Assembly (NCBI RefSeq): GCF_008329945.1
Contig: NZ_CP035807.1
Span: forward strand, 310,001 to 374,000
Length of the DNA stretch: 64,000 bases
Direction of reading: 5' to 3'
Source: Thiospirochaeta perfilievii
GTDB taxonomy: Bacteria > Spirochaetota > Spirochaetia > DSM-2461
Shown: positions 1,477-7,728 of the stretch, piece after piece
Position numbering within the stretch: the stretch's first letter is position 1
How the letters are laid out: every line of letters begins with the position of its first letter
The notes under the pieces: model-generated
The model's database searches: none
Seen by the model: only the letters and a program-made list of their open reading frames with translations
Told to the model about the DNA's origin: nothing
Translations under genes and position numbers: made by a program

Positions 1477-1552
1477 TAATACTTATTTCAATTACTAAAT
1501 CTATTTTTTTATATAAAACCTAGAATAAATATAACGATGCTATGATAGAAAG

Positions 1553-1740
1553 TGTAATCATTTGCGACTGGTGTTATAATGAAGTTAGTACTTCTTAAAA
1601 GAGGGACGGCCGATGGCTGTAAATCGACTGGGACCTTTGGATCCCGTTATAACGAATAGCAGTCATCAGTCGCATTAACATTGTGAGGATGATCAATATT
1701 TATCATACCCCGTATAGACGCATGATTATTATACTCCTCT
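1553..1740 (+). ncRNA. Candidate IS110 bridge RNA
   Basis: This non-coding stretch directly upstream of the transposase folds by eye into a branched structure. A long-range stem pairs 1563-1573 with 1664-1674 (11 pairs, one G-U). Inside it, 1574-1579 pairs with 1647-1652. Three local hairpins follow: 1581-1585/1590-1594 with a four-base loop, 1606-1611/1615-1620, and 1630-1635/1639-1645 with one bulged base. A second domain is closed by 1685-1689/1735-1739. Position, size and two-domain form fit the bridge RNAs of IS110 elements, whose internal loops guide target and donor recognition. The transcript ends are guesses. Confidence 0.6.
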
Positions 1741-1774
1741 TCTTTTAGGAAAGAAAGTTAACAGGAGGGATGAT

Positions 1775-2881
1775 ATGGAATTTATGGGAATTGACCTTCA
1801 TACAAACTGCTTTAACTGTTGCATACTAGACGAAGGGACAAGTAAAAAGGTTGTAAGTTACTCTATTGACGATGAATCTTTGGAGAAATTTTACAAGACA
1901 TTAACACCTGACACATATGTAATTGTAGAATCAACAACAAATGCTTTTAAGTTTACAGAACTAATTAGGGACAAAGTTAAAGATGTAAATATTTCTAATA
2001 CTTATGCCATGAAACTGATTAGTTTTACAAATAAGAAAACTGATAAAGTTGATGCAGAAAAGTTAGCTAGAGTCTTAAAAATGCAAATATTAAGCGGAGA
2101 GGAGCAGATTAAAAGAGTAGAACTACCACCTCCAATTATCCAAGATTTAAGAGCGTTATTTTCTACTTACAAACTACTTGGAAAGCAAAGGACTCAGCTA
2201 AAAAACAGAATACATTCTTTATTAAAACAGAACCTTTACCCTTTTAATAAAGTAATGATCTTTAATAATAAAATGAGAGATAAAATATTAAATATTTCTG
2301 ATTCCAGAGAATTAAAATTTCAACTAATGATTTTGTTTAAAGAACTGGATAATTTAGATGAAACTATTATTTTACTTAAAAAGGAAATCGAAATAGTTGG
2401 AGCTCCATACATGAAAGAAATAGATTTATTAACTTCTATGCAAGGGATCAGTGTATTTACAGCTATAGCTATAATTTCCGATATAATTGATGTTAATAGA
2501 TTTCCTAATTCCAAGAAATTTTCATCATATTTAAGGTCAGCTCCAAAGGTTGAAAGTTCTAATGATAAAACTCTAATAAAGAGTACGAATAAACAAGGAC
2601 GTAAATTAACAATTGCCCTACTATACCAATCATTAAATCATTTTATTGATTCTAATAGAGCTGTAGAAAATTGGTATTACAAATTAAGTAAATACAAAAA
2701 AGTGGGTAAAGTTAGAATGGGAACTTGCAGAAGATTTATTACAGTCATATATCAAATACTTAAAAAAGAAGAATATTATTGGTTCATGGACTCTAAAAAC
2801 CATGATAGAAAAATGCATGATTATGAGGTTTTATTAAGAAAAAATAGGATAAATATTAGCAAATGGAAGGAGGTTTCTTGA
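1775..2881 (+). CDS. IS110-family transposase (bridge-RNA-type recombinase)
   Basis: 368 residues, normal for the family. The N-terminal half is the RuvC-like DEDD domain: G-I-D-L-H near residue 5, an acidic V-E-S-T-T-N-A-F near 52, and K-T-D-K-V-D-A-E near 90. The C-terminal half is the Transposase_20 domain (G-I-S-V-F-T-A-I-A-I then R-F-P-N-S-K-K-F-S-S-Y). The serines in A-P-K-V-E-S-S-N occupy the place of the catalytic serine, followed by the usual K-Q-G-R-K motif. The start has a strong AGGAGG site 8 bases upstream. The gene looks intact. IS110 proteins work with the RNA made from the element's non-coding end. Confidence 0.92.
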   Translation: MEFMGIDLHTNCFNCCILDEGTSKKVVSYSIDDESLEKFYKTLTPDTYVIVESTTNAFKFTELIRDKVKDVNISNTYAMKLISFTNKKTDKVDAEKLARVLKMQILSGEEQIKRVELPPPIIQDLRALFSTYKLLGKQRTQLKNRIHSLLKQNLYPFNKVMIFNNKMRDKILNISDSRELKFQLMILFKELDNLDETIILLKKEIEIVGAPYMKEIDLLTSMQGISVFTAIAIISDIIDVNRFPNSKKFSSYLRSAPKVESSNDKTLIKSTNKQGRKLTIALLYQSLNHFIDSNRAVENWYYKLSKYKKVGKVRMGTCRRFITVIYQILKKEEYYWFMDSKNHDRKMHDYEVLLRKNRINISKWKEVS

Positions 2882-2884
2882 CTT

Positions 2885-3035
2885 TCATCATAGACGTCGA
2901 TTTGAATTGCGAAATCGAGCCCGTAGGGCGTAGGAATTGGGACAAAAAGTTCGTCATTTCCAGTGATTTAATACTAAATAAGGACTCCGAGGTTTTCTAC
3001 TATAATTAATATTAGATAACAAATATAAGGAGGAA
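2885..3035 (+). other. Folded non-coding segment before an IS110 remnant
   Basis: The 2882-3244 interval has no intact gene. Its first part holds several potential hairpins: CGATTT pairing with AAATCG around 2899-2918, GCCC-GTA-GGGC just after, then GGAA...TTCC enclosing GAC...GTC. The order hairpin, TGGGAC, stem-loop resembles the candidate bridge RNA at 1553-1740, where a hairpin is also followed by TGGGAC and a stem-loop. It ends in a strong AGGAGG ribosome site feeding the remnant start codon. It may be the left-end RNA of the second, broken IS110 element, or the right end of the first. Confidence 0.3.
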
Positions 3036-3039
3036 TCAT

Positions 3040-3087
3040 ATGAGATTCTATACCGAACAATATCAGTTATACCACCATTGTAGATGA
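3040..3087 (+). pseudogene. N-terminal remnant of a second IS110-type transposase
   Basis: A 15-codon reading frame with an excellent ribosome site (AAGGAGG, 6 bases before ATG) begins M-R-F-Y-T-E-Q-Y-Q-L-Y. Many IS110-family transposases open with a closely similar M-K-F-Y-T-x-Q-H-x-F-Y-C-G-I-D-L-H. Here the match stops after the second tyrosine pair and the frame ends at a stop codon. I read it as the stump left after deletion of the rest of the gene. The short match makes this tentative; a leader peptide is the main alternative. Confidence 0.4.
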
Positions 3088-4090: not shown

Positions 4091-7003
4091 TTATCTATCA
4101 TGAGTCAGATAATCATATAAAGAGTGTTCTACAGGATGGCTTATCTGAAAGTTCACTTTAACTATTGATACGTTGTTACCTTTATCATCTTTAATTGTAG
4201 TCTCTGTAAAAGTGGAATCAATTGGAGTTAAATCTCCCATGTAGTAGAAGTCTTTACCTTCATCGTTACTTTTTTTAATAAATAGAGGGACTCGTAGACC
4301 ATTTTTATAGTTTTGTAGAGTAGTCATACAAGGACTATTTAGGGTTCGTCTATTTTTTGACATCCATGTAAACTCATGTCTATTTACAAACTCATCAACA
4401 TATTTTGTACTACTAGATATATCCTCATCCTTATGATAGTTAACAAAGATTGGAAAATTTGATTTATCACTACTAACTATGTACCCACCAACATTCTGGG
4501 CAACAGGATTTTGGTCCCAGTTCAGGACTCTAAAGACATCTTTTCTTGAGTATTTTTTGTATAGGATAAAACCATCTTTTATTATTGATTTATTAAAATC
4601 TTGGGTAAAGTTATATATAGAGTAATTTATTGAGTCCTTTAGAAACGATTTGAATGTTTCACTTTGTAAAGCCTCTATTAAAGTAGTATCTTTTGAAATT
4701 AGCTCATTATCTATTTTCACTATTTTGAAGCCTGTTTTCTCAAATAGTGAGATTCTACTCTTATTAACAGTAGTCATGCTAAACAACATATTAAGATTAT
4801 GGATAGCAGAGATTATACTATCTTTAGTTGAATTGTAACCAAATTCATATTTAATTACTGATTGTACCTTGTTTATTGTTACCCTATCGTTATCTAATAA
4901 CAGTTTTAAGATTAAAGTCTCTTCGACCCTTACACTGTTATTAATCTCCACTGAAAAGAACTCTAATAGAGTAATATGGTCTGGATTAAGATTTTCTATT
5001 GGTTCCTTAATATCTTTTAAAAAATTGTAGTAAGATTTCGAATAATCTACATAAAGAATAGGATCTCTAGAACCGTGTTCTATAAAATCCATCATTAAAG
5101 GTATAAAACCTACTTTATGCTTTAAAAGTTTGTAGTCCTGTATAAGATCTTTCTTTAACTGCATATTTGCTTTATCTATGGATTTAAAAATTCTATCCTT
5201 AGATATTTTATCAAAGTTAACTGTAGAGGCCCCTGGTATACCCTCATTCCCCTTTGAGATGAGTCTTCTTATTCTGTCTTTGTTATAAGATGTATCACCA
5301 AAAAGTGCTACTGGTACTAGATAATTACTACTATAATTACCAATAAAATCTATAACGGTTAGATAATCTTTACCATCGACCTTTCTTAAACCACGACCTA
5401 ATTGCTGGACAAAAACTATAGCTGACTGGGTGGGTCGTAACATAATAACTGTATTAAGCTTTGGAATATCTATACCTTCATTAAATATATCTACAGTAAA
5501 TATCAGGTCTATCTTTTCTAGGTACTCCTCTGACTCTAATTTCTCAATTGCATTCTCTCTCTCTGATTCCGAGTTTTTACCACTTAGAGCGATGGTTTTA
5601 AAACCTCTATTATTAAACTCTTCAGATAGGCTTATACACTCATCTATTCTTGAACAGAAAACTAGCCCTCTTAACTCTCCACTATCTGTACCATAAAAGT
5701 TGAGTTTATCTATAATTCTAGCAACTCTCTCCTCTGAAACTAAATGTCTAAAATAGTCTGAATCTTTCTCTACTCCATCAATAGTTAAATCTGATACACC
5801 AAAGTAGTGAAATGGAGATAACATATCCTCATCTAAAGCTCTATGTAACCTTATCTCCCCTGCTATGTTGTGATCAAATAGGTCGAAGATATCTAATCCA
5901 TCAGTTCTCTCAGGAGTTGCAGTCATACCTAATAGAAACTTAGGAGTAAAGTAGTTTAAAATATTGCTATAACTATTTGCACCCGCCCTATGTGACTCAT
6001 CAATAATTATATAATCAAAATACTCTTTACCAAAAATTGACATATAGTTAGGCTTTGACACTGTCTGAACAGTAGAGAATACAAAGTCAACATTACTATC
6101 TTTCTCTACTCCCGAAAATATACCCATGGATCTACTACTACCAAAGATCTTTTTAAAGCTTTCCATCGCCTTTTTTGCAATGTTTAATCTATGAACAACA
6201 AAGAGTACCCTCTTAGCATTGAACCTTTTAACATCAAATGCTGAAAGGTAAGTTTTACCAGTTCCTGTAGCCGATATAAGTAGAGCTTTAGTTATACTCT
6301 TTTTCCGTAAATCCTTAATATTATCTAAAACTTCTAACTGCATAGTATTGGGTTTAAGTTTCTTCTCTGGAACTATGCTTAATTTTTGTTGTTCAAACCT
6401 GGTTTTTACAGCACTTTTATAGATATTCTCATAATGTGCTATATAGGCTGGAGAAACTTTATGGGCATTGTCAAACTCTGTTTTAAATTCATTGTAAGTC
6501 TTTTTATATATACTACTATTAGGGGTAGCTGATACTTTTAAGTTCCACTCTTTATTGGTACTTAGAGCTGTCTGTGTAAAGTTACTACTACCAATTATTA
6601 TATTAAAATGGTTATCTCTTTTAAAAAGGTAACCCTTAGAGTGGAAATCCTCATCAATGACAATTCTTAGATCAATATTTTTAAACTTGAGTAAGGTCTT
6701 TAATGCTTCTGGTTGGGTAAAGTTAAGGTACTGAGAGACAAGAACCTTCCCCTGAATCCCCCTCTGTTCTAACTCTTCTAATGTATTCATAACAGTAGCA
6801 ATACCGCTTTTAGTTGCAAATGCTACTGAAAACCAAAACTCCTGACACAGATCTAACTCATGTTTTATTGTTGATAATACTTTTTTACCACTACTTTTAT
6901 CATTAAATAGGAGTTGTGGTTGATATTCTGCTCTAGATTCATAGAGTTCATCTAGATATCCTGTTGTTAAACTATTTTTAAATTCTTTGTTAAATTCTTC
7001 CAT
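4091..7003 (-). CDS. PLD-domain SF2 helicase with DUF3427 C-terminus
   Basis: 970 residues. Residues about 40-160 form a phospholipase-D-like nuclease module with an H121-S-K123 and G-S-S-N-F-T motif. Residues 240-545 are a superfamily 2 helicase: Walker A A-T-G-T-G-K-T at 245-251, D-E-S-H at 335-338, T-A-T at 361-363 and Q-Q-L-G-R-G-L-R-K at 533-541. The remainder matches the DUF3427 region found in this helicase family. Such proteins are predicted to act on DNA, and several PLD-helicase fusions belong to phage-defence islands; a defence role here is inference. Its ATG overlaps the stop of the upstream Nudix gene (TAATG), so the two are translated together. Confidence 0.87.
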   Translation of the reverse strand: MEEFNKEFKNSLTTGYLDELYESRAEYQPQLLFNDKSSGKKVLSTIKHELDLCQEFWFSVAFATKSGIATVMNTLEELEQRGIQGKVLVSQYLNFTQPEALKTLLKFKNIDLRIVIDEDFHSKGYLFKRDNHFNIIIGSSNFTQTALSTNKEWNLKVSATPNSSIYKKTYNEFKTEFDNAHKVSPAYIAHYENIYKSAVKTRFEQQKLSIVPEKKLKPNTMQLEVLDNIKDLRKKSITKALLISATGTGKTYLSAFDVKRFNAKRVLFVVHRLNIAKKAMESFKKIFGSSRSMGIFSGVEKDSNVDFVFSTVQTVSKPNYMSIFGKEYFDYIIIDESHRAGANSYSNILNYFTPKFLLGMTATPERTDGLDIFDLFDHNIAGEIRLHRALDEDMLSPFHYFGVSDLTIDGVEKDSDYFRHLVSEERVARIIDKLNFYGTDSGELRGLVFCSRIDECISLSEEFNNRGFKTIALSGKNSESERENAIEKLESEEYLEKIDLIFTVDIFNEGIDIPKLNTVIMLRPTQSAIVFVQQLGRGLRKVDGKDYLTVIDFIGNYSSNYLVPVALFGDTSYNKDRIRRLISKGNEGIPGASTVNFDKISKDRIFKSIDKANMQLKKDLIQDYKLLKHKVGFIPLMMDFIEHGSRDPILYVDYSKSYYNFLKDIKEPIENLNPDHITLLEFFSVEINNSVRVEETLILKLLLDNDRVTINKVQSVIKYEFGYNSTKDSIISAIHNLNMLFSMTTVNKSRISLFEKTGFKIVKIDNELISKDTTLIEALQSETFKSFLKDSINYSIYNFTQDFNKSIIKDGFILYKKYSRKDVFRVLNWDQNPVAQNVGGYIVSSDKSNFPIFVNYHKDEDISSSTKYVDEFVNRHEFTWMSKNRRTLNSPCMTTLQNYKNGLRVPLFIKKSNDEGKDFYYMGDLTPIDSTFTETTIKDDKGNNVSIVKVNFQISHPVEHSLYDYLTHDR

Positions 7004-7395
7004 TACTTCTCCATTAGTTTTTCAACTATTGGGATATCGGCAGCTGCCCAATCTAGAGTATCTAACTCTTCTTTTTTAAGCCATTTATAATCTATATGTT
7101 CTGTTAATTCAAAGTTGTAATCATTCGCATCACAGATAAAACTATACATAGTCATTTTGAAATCTGGATACTCATGGTTTACTGTTACAGACTCCTCTAT
7201 TACATTGATATCTATTTTTAACTCTTCTAATATCTCTCTTTTTATTGCATCTATTTTAGGCTCTTCGTGCTCTATTTTACCACCAGGGAACTCAAACTTC
7301 TCTGATATATAATTGTATTTATTCCATGGTCTCTGTACACAGAGATACTTATCATCTTTTACGATTATTGCAGCTACTACTTCGATATGTTTCAT
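7003..7395 (-). CDS. Nudix hydrolase, MutT-like
   Basis: 130 residues with a complete Nudix box at 39-61 (G-G-K-I-E, then R-E-I-L-E-E-L spaced as GX5EX7REUXEEXGU). The P-W-N-K-Y and F-E-F-P-G-G-K-I-E context resembles 8-oxo-dGTP diphosphatases of the MutT type, which clean oxidised nucleotides from the pool. The stop codon overlaps the start of the PLD-helicase gene (TAATG), implying coupled translation and a joint role. In its neighbourhood a nucleotide- or nucleotide-linked-signal hydrolase for defence is equally possible. The upstream region 7396-7764 contains only the folded repeat described at 7498 and the ars promoter. Confidence 0.85.
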   Translation of the reverse strand: MKHIEVVAAIIVKDDKYLCVQRPWNKYNYISEKFEFPGGKIEHEEPKIDAIKREILEELKIDINVIEESVTVNHEYPDFKMTMYSFICDANDYNFELTEHIDYKWLKKEELDTLDWAAADIPIVEKLMEK

Positions 7396-7592: not shown

Positions 7593-7728
7593 AATAATAA
7601 CCCTTCAACCCTCTCTAAAAATATCTTATCTCTATACCTTAATTTCTACCTATGAACTGTATAGAGTTTTAATTATATTTTATTGGGATGAGAATTTTGC
7701 TGATAATATCATACAGTAACGTAAATTC

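Follow-up and report, generated by a model that had tools for sequence, protein, structure and literature searches.

The 64,000-nucleotide stretch of Thiospirochaeta perfilievii DNA analysed here (the window; contig NZ_CP035807.1, positions 310,001 to 374,000) carries an insertion element of the IS110/IS1111 superfamily, whose 5' non-coding end very probably specifies an RNA of the bridge-RNA or seekRNA type with two guides; its promoter would form in the excised circle, and the guides fit integron attC sites. The ends of the element, the covariation between guides and flanks and within stems, the layout of the junction promoter and the attC location of sister copies and several relatives are read directly from the DNA. 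A preliminary description of the window had proposed a bridge RNA at the left end of an IS110 element. Guides that match the target flanks and stems that covary support this interpretation; its mechanism and location stand, whereas some details of layout do not, the guide order being as in IS1111. Guide-target covariation, the attC target, a corrected fold and the hybrid layout go beyond that description.

1536-2895, forward strand: whole insertion element of 1360 bp, the AC core dinucleotide being counted once, at the right end
1775-2881, forward strand: intact open reading frame of the DEDD transposase (368 amino acids; D7, E52, D90, D93 and S262 conserved)
1529-1535, forward strand: left flank ATATAAC, an attC R'' box of the RYYYAAC type, with the left target at 1530-1535 and the AC core at 1534-1535
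2896-2903, forward strand: right target GTCGATTT, complementary at 8/8 positions to the 5' guide of the RNA
1621-1628, forward strand: right target guide AAATCGAC, complementary to the top strand of the right flank
1648-1653, forward strand: left target guide TATAAC, identical to the top strand of the left flank

The limits of the element come from a copy-to-copy comparison of three full copies, whose homology begins at 1536 and ends at 2895; on the left, TATAAC is followed by GATGCTATGATAG, and on the right, TTGACTTTCATCATAGAC is followed by GTC. Removing the window element joins TATAAC to GTC and rebuilds an empty attC site, ATAACGTCC; its native target sequence is ATATAACGTCGATTT. The non-coding DNA amounts to ~239 bp before the transposase gene and 14 bp after it. 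The host genome (3.70 Mb) harbors two further full copies, L002 and L003, which are 84-85% identical to the window copy in DNA and 87-90% in protein, as well as a left-end fragment, L004, with which the range of identity becomes 84-87%. Search patterns derived from an alignment of eight proteins yielded about 25 relatives, all from Spirochaetota and mostly 44-56% identical in protein. An earlier scan of contigs with patterns from three near-identical proteins had given no matches, those patterns being too specific, and a search of IMG/VR returned no relative.

Molecular recognition of the target is predicted to be mediated by two short segments of the RNA. In 21 elements, the six RNA bases preceding a conserved GAATA/GATTA motif were compared with the six bases up to the left insertion point; for the right flank, in 14 elements, its reverse complement was set against the eight RNA bases that lead up to the TGGG hairpin. 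The left guide matched at 118/126 positions (permuted pairs, 61.6 ± 5.6) and the right guide at 80/112 (permuted pairs, 39.1 ± 5.6); in each test, 0/100000 permutations were as good. The opposite assignments of guides to flanks gave no signal (p 0.24 and 0.83), and the guide order of the IS110 group, left then right, was examined as an alternative and rejected. Because the guide sites had first been chosen by eye, an unbiased scan was made over every alignment position (~210 positions in 19 elements, or 13 for the right flank). For the left flank, the top-scoring copy was 1648-1653 (z = 9.4, against 3.7 for the runner-up), and for the right flank the top-scoring complement was 1621-1628 (z = 6.6, against 2.9), both optima falling in one stem-closed loop, on opposite sides of one hairpin. 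Held-out elements, found later with a 15-sequence RNA model or from earlier matches, behaved similarly, with 32/42 matches for the left guide and 35/48 for the right (p ~5e-12 each, at a chance level of 25%), the clearest case being L124, with 6/6 and 8/8. Within the host genome, the window copy and L003 have near-identical transposases and different flanks, and the change from TATAAC to TTTAAC is present in flank and RNA alike. Like bridge RNAs and seekRNAs, the predicted RNA has guide segments complementary to both target strands around the core. When the loops are compared with element ends and target sites, as had been suggested earlier, they agree with the flanks on both sides and, with less certainty, with the termini of the element itself, which leaves the bridge-RNA proposal unrefuted.

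1678-1682, forward strand: probable right donor guide ACATT, a partial complement of the element's first bases, GATGC
1714-1719, forward strand: probable left donor guide ATAGAC, the same as the element's right terminus at 2890-2895

When the scan was performed with the first five bases of each element, the best complement among 214 windows was 1678-1682, immediately before the second-domain hairpin (z = 4.0, reached in 0/3000 permutations; a window elsewhere came close at 3.9), and this segment probably acts as the right donor guide. ATAGAC at 1714-1719, on the 3' side of that hairpin, is invariant in 19 aligned rows and hence beyond covariation testing, and L052 has ATAGAT in the RNA and in the right end alike. 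This segment probably acts as the left donor guide. The implied order, right then left, is that of the target loop.

1563-1569, forward strand: outer stem, 5' arm, pairing with 1668-1674; 90-96% of cells paired, with a GC/AU exchange at one pair
1668-1674, forward strand: outer stem, 3' arm, pairing with 1563-1569
1612-1620, forward strand: 5' arm of the stem closing the target-binding loop; 95.8% paired, with both-sided changes at 5/9 pairs
1659-1667, forward strand: 3' arm of that stem, pairing with 1612-1620
1629-1646, forward strand: hairpin between the two target guides (1629-1635/1639-1646); 94.7% paired, three pairs changed on both sides
1685-1711, forward strand: donor-domain hairpin (1685-1693/1702-1711), with the inner stem ATGAT/ATCAT, which reads ATGAG/CTCAT in the sister copy L003
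1575-1580, forward strand: long-range helix, 5' arm, pairing with 1728-1733 and crossing the outer stem
1728-1733, forward strand: long-range helix, 3' arm, pairing with 1575-1580

The non-coding region is less AT-rich than its surroundings, as had been remarked, with a GC content of 43-46% at 1550-1700 and 13-25% immediately upstream. Shuffled sequences have folding energies nearly as good (z = -1.9; 8/200 shuffles fold equally well), and therefore, energy being too weak to decide as the sole criterion, the fold needed comparative support. An Rfam search at both thresholds gave no match, which is not decisive either way. Across 19 aligned non-coding regions, 94% of cells are paired in the fold and 37 cells are changed on both sides, versus 12.8 in shuffles (0/500); as a control, sliding the partner by 1-3 columns lowers pairing to 33-49%. 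The RNA model built from 15 of the sequences and tested on held-out relatives recovers L068, L092, L049, L052, L051 and L040, together with new genomes.

This comparison of homologues confirms the multi-branched fold that had been proposed upstream of the transposase gene, with corrections to its stems; compensatory base changes, the check suggested for it, are present in the key stems, and the fold is thus not refuted. The proposed 11-pair stem 1563-1573/1664-1674 retains seven pairs (1563-1569/1668-1674), its inner four being dropped because they use bases of the stem 1612-1620/1659-1667, for which the support is better. The closing stem 1685-1689/1735-1739 assigned to the second domain is confined to the copies of the host species; the conserved feature there is the hairpin 1685-1693/1702-1711, which is formed in most homologues despite their differing sequences. 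The long-range helix was absent from the earlier fold. It has 94.8% of its cells paired, with changes on both sides (A-U, G-U, G-C and C-G exchanges; 0/500 shuffles), and because this helix and the outer stem cross, they would form together as a pseudoknot or else replace one another. Many of the one-sided stem changes turn G-C into G-U, a pair whose counterpart on the opposite strand would be an A-C mismatch, and this pattern favours a sense-strand RNA.

2896-3072, forward strand: rest of the host attC site, ending at the R'-like box GTTATAC (3066-3072); arms degenerate in the window copy

The targets of the element, in two sister copies and at least four relatives, are recognizable as integron attC sites. 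The host genome encodes an integron integrase (382 bits, cut-off 265), and L002 lies ~24 kb from it. The attC sites were located by eye beside the integrase and then by pattern; the simple regular expression RYYYAAC..GTTRRRY failed, the local R' boxes reading GTTAT(G/C/A). The pattern ATAACGTCCNNTTRA, which describes empty ATAACGTCC sites, occurs 17 times, on a single strand and in two clusters, and its reversed control once. In 15/17 of these empty sites an R' box (GTTAT..) is in range and the inner arms are complementary, as in attC; for the other two, no R' box is present within 330 bases. Without the element, L002 and L003 read TATAACGTCCTGTTGAGG and TTTAACGTCCTGTTGAGG, equal in form to the empty attC, the insertion point being between R'' and L''. 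The same fixed position in attC is occupied in these sister copies and in the relatives L013, L015, L016 and L040. attC-like right flanks are also found in G002 and G030, spirochaete genomes with intact integron integrases, and L040 is in an attC-like site of a genome whose integron integrase is decayed (G367:C96:5189-5773, three stops). The window copy is likely, rather than certain, to sit in an attC site: R'' and the R'-like box are retained, but the arm pairing, at 9.4, does not exceed the background (7.6, sd 5.0), and that of the sister copy L002 is 14.1, although this score is by itself too noisy for judging single sites.

In the host genome, every intact insertion is in an attC or attC-like site, in the same place and orientation, as might also be found if the element recognised the folded single-stranded attC hairpin in the manner of the integron integrase, the guides being incidental. 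This is very unlikely given the relatives with other guides, which occupy unrelated, non-attC repeats that match their own guides: L042 and L043 have TTAACCAC to the left and GGACCACA to the right of the insertion point, and L046 has GGAGAAC to the left and ACGGAGAA to the right. To judge by their flanks, such relatives are instances of natural retargeting. L042, L043 and L108 form a side branch with guides for TTAACCAC followed by G(G/A)ACC(A/T)CAC, seemingly a dispersed repeat unrelated to attC.

Leader control is common among insertion sequences, and the structured region is indeed the 5' leader of the transposase gene, ending near its ribosome-binding site. It might then only regulate transposase expression, by attenuation or promoter occlusion, with the protein choosing attC by sequence. 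Regulation as a leader would not, however, call for the left flank to be copied and the right flank to be complemented element by element; both are found, and the TATAAC/TTTAAC change that separates the window copy from L003, with their near-identical transposases, is matched in flank and RNA; this alternative is even less likely than hairpin recognition. Least credible is that the guide-flank matches are relics of shared ancestry, old flank copies kept by slow divergence with no role in targeting, since, although the elements are related and some similar flanks make the permutation results optimistic, the flanks change by whole words from element to element, these changes are mirrored at two separate places in the RNA (as a copy at one, as a complement at the other), reversing the assignments leaves no signal, and held-out elements behave alike.

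Several observations nevertheless weigh against a targeting RNA of the bridge-RNA/seekRNA kind. Some elements misfit their own right flank (L044, 1/8; L041 and L011, 3/8 each), the evidence for the donor guides is moderate, and the attC site at the window copy itself is degenerate. The transposase is only ~25% identical to named relatives, its profile match to IS621 is weak (7.7e-08), and most members have N, not G, after the conserved serine. The permutation tests leave common ancestry among the elements in place; given the held-out cases and the two-site pattern, it is unlikely to explain the guide-flank matches in full. Finally, the support as a whole is drawn from sequence.

1541-1546, forward strand: -10 box TATGAT, part of the circle-junction promoter, with a 17-bp spacer to TTGACT
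2878-2883, forward strand: -35 box TTGACT at the right end, sharing bases with the transposase stop codon

No complete sigma-70 promoter is present within 1500-1800. A -10 box lacking a -35 box had been noted in front of the RNA and ascribed to a promoter completed on circularisation, which the layout of the ends bears out: in the circle, the joined ends would read TTGACT-17 bp-TATGAT, and this spacing is the same in 17/17 elements with both ends present. The junction sequence predicted from the ends is CATAGAC-GATGCTATGAT. At 1572-1580, TGTTATAAT resembles an extended -10 element and is kept as TATAAT, TATACT or TATGCT in 17/17 relatives having the region. An internal extended -10 promoter (TATAAT-like hexamer at 1575-1580 plus TGn) was considered as a candidate and set aside as only possible and unsupported, the covarying helix with 1728-1733 using the same bases.

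For transcription, complex formation, strand exchange and the effect on cassettes, we infer the following course of events. Excision would join the right and left ends in a circle, restoring a sigma-70 promoter from which both the RNA and the transposase gene would be transcribed. The 5' guide (1621-1628) would pair with the top strand to the right of the core and the 3' guide (1648-1653), beyond the hairpin, with the bottom strand to its left, the RNA thus reading both half-sites. In the second domain, the same guide order probably serves to read the joined ends of the element itself. In complex with this RNA, the transposase would then insert the circle by recombination at an AC core in DNA that matches the guides. 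As the guides fit attC between the R'' box (..ATAAC) and GTCC, the element is expected to settle in cassette sites and to split them.

The transposase had been described as an intact IS110 transposase, and this holds for the 368-residue open reading frame at 1775-2881, which matches DEDD_Tnp_IS110 (2.6e-14) and Transposase_20 (1.8e-12) of Pfam, as well as the NCBIfam model 'IS110 family RNA-guided transposase' (160 bits, cut-off 140), all above curated cut-offs. An N-terminal DEDD RuvC domain precedes a C-terminal Transposase_20 domain, the domain order of the IS110/IS1111 superfamily. D7, E52, D90 and D93 are invariant across eight homologues; S262, likewise invariant, aligns to the catalytic-serine region of IS621. 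The next residue is N in most members and G in L034; residues 262-263 of the window copy (~2558-2563) are SN in place of SG, the motif reported as conserved in the superfamily. In the transposase tree the Spirochaetota elements form a separate clade, whose deep branching order relative to IS4321 and IS621 is not settled, labelled references being few.

1540-1553, forward strand: left subterminal inverted repeat CTATGATAGAAAGT, a match to the right end with one indel
2881-2893, forward strand: right subterminal inverted repeat ACTTTCATCATAG, the counterpart of 1540-1553

In most relatives the subterminal inverted repeat is an 11-bp sequence, CTATGATAAAA; in the window copy it is 7+6 with a one-base indel. 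The terminal extensions outside the repeats measure 4 and 2 bp if the core is assigned to the right end only. A downstream guide region at 2860-3080 was ruled out, as its fold is not unusual and the region is host DNA. An isolated left-end remnant, ATTTAACGATGCTATGATAGAAAGT, is found in L030 (~7665-7702, minus strand), and the sequence after it looks like a broken reverse transcriptase of a group II intron.

The integron regions have further features. Beside the integron integrase, L026 (3960-11121; genome C1, ~3602960-3610121) contains a series of 399-bp units, about ten of them near-identical, together with two that have diverged; an attC site is present in several, and the units resemble repeated small cassettes or cassettes with no open reading frame. 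Inside this cassette array, at 6694-7053, is a 60-bp tandem repeat in about five copies. A second cluster, L116 (genome C1, 1662000-1680000), has six attC sites and lies 1.9 Mb from the integrase; a tyrosine recombinase near it scores 107 bits, under the integron cut-off. Gene pairs resembling toxin-antitoxin systems, typical cassette cargo, occur by the integrase (L026, 11355-12800) and by an element copy (L003, 625-1279).

Among known systems, IS621 also encodes its RNA at the left end, ahead of the gene for its DEDD transposase, and this RNA too has target and donor domains (PMC11208160, PMC11208158); IS621 further shares with the present element two guides per loop parted by a hairpin, a core dinucleotide and a circle-junction promoter. 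In contrast, its left guide is 5' and its right guide 3' (PMC11208158), whereas the loop order is right then left here; its core is CT rather than AC, its subterminal inverted repeats are 2-3 bp long rather than 11 bp, the crossing long-range helix sets the present RNA apart, and the transposases match weakly. ISEc21, of the IS110 group (PMC11187229), likewise combines an upstream guide RNA, a junction promoter and a transposase length range of 345-385 residues that includes that of the present protein. Its guide order is that of IS621, the bottom-strand match preceding the top-strand match, unlike the order found here.

The seekRNAs of the IS1111 group (ISEc11, ISKpn4, ISPst6) put the complement of the top strand before the bottom-strand match (PMC11187229), as does the present RNA, and the ~11-bp subterminal inverted repeats fall in the 11-13 bp range of IS1111. 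The guide RNA, however, is upstream of the transposase gene here and downstream there, the terminal extensions total 6 bp, as opposed to 9-10 bp in IS1111 (7 or 6, and 3 bp), and the transposase branches apart from IS4321, the deep order not being settled. The upstream/downstream rule for IS1111 has exceptions, such as ISMtsp17 (PMC11187229). Targeting of attC is already known in the IS1111 group, for ISKpn4, ISPst6 and ISPa21 (PMC11187229, PMC11616780), with which the present element shares a fixed place and orientation in integron attC and an expected immobilisation of cassettes. It differs from them in its upstream guide region and in its host phylum, Spirochaetota. A literature search, incomplete in coverage, found no description of such an element in spirochaete integrons.

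By its sequence the element is therefore a member of the IS110/IS1111 superfamily, bridge-RNA-like in its predicted working, and neither subgroup fits cleanly. The upstream non-coding region is the longer one, as in IS110, but the left guide is not 5' of the right (1621-1628 right, then 1648-1653 left) and the subterminal repeats are not short or absent (11 bp in relatives). The guide order and repeats are those of IS1111, but the guide region is not downstream and the extensions of 4 and 2 bp do not conform. The layout thus appears to be a hybrid. We lean towards regarding the Spirochaetota clade as a third architecture of RNA-guided DEDD recombination, with an upstream RNA, right-left guide order, long repeats, a crossing helix, an AC core, a recurrent attC target and retargeting to genome repeats in side branches. 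If so, guide order and RNA position would be separable, and attC targeting would have arisen, or persisted, beyond the classic IS1111-attC group. RNA-guided transposition would also be linked to spirochaete integrons, where attC-lodged elements could freeze gene cassettes, an effect on which experiments have so far given limited evidence (PMC11616780). Among programmable recombination guides, bridge and seek RNAs are the most recent class, and few of their layouts have been studied; a compact clade with clear guides and cores and many natural retargeting events offers testable guide-to-target rules. The RNA-guided principle is already known; the layout here combines features of two known groups and is absent from the two founding papers.
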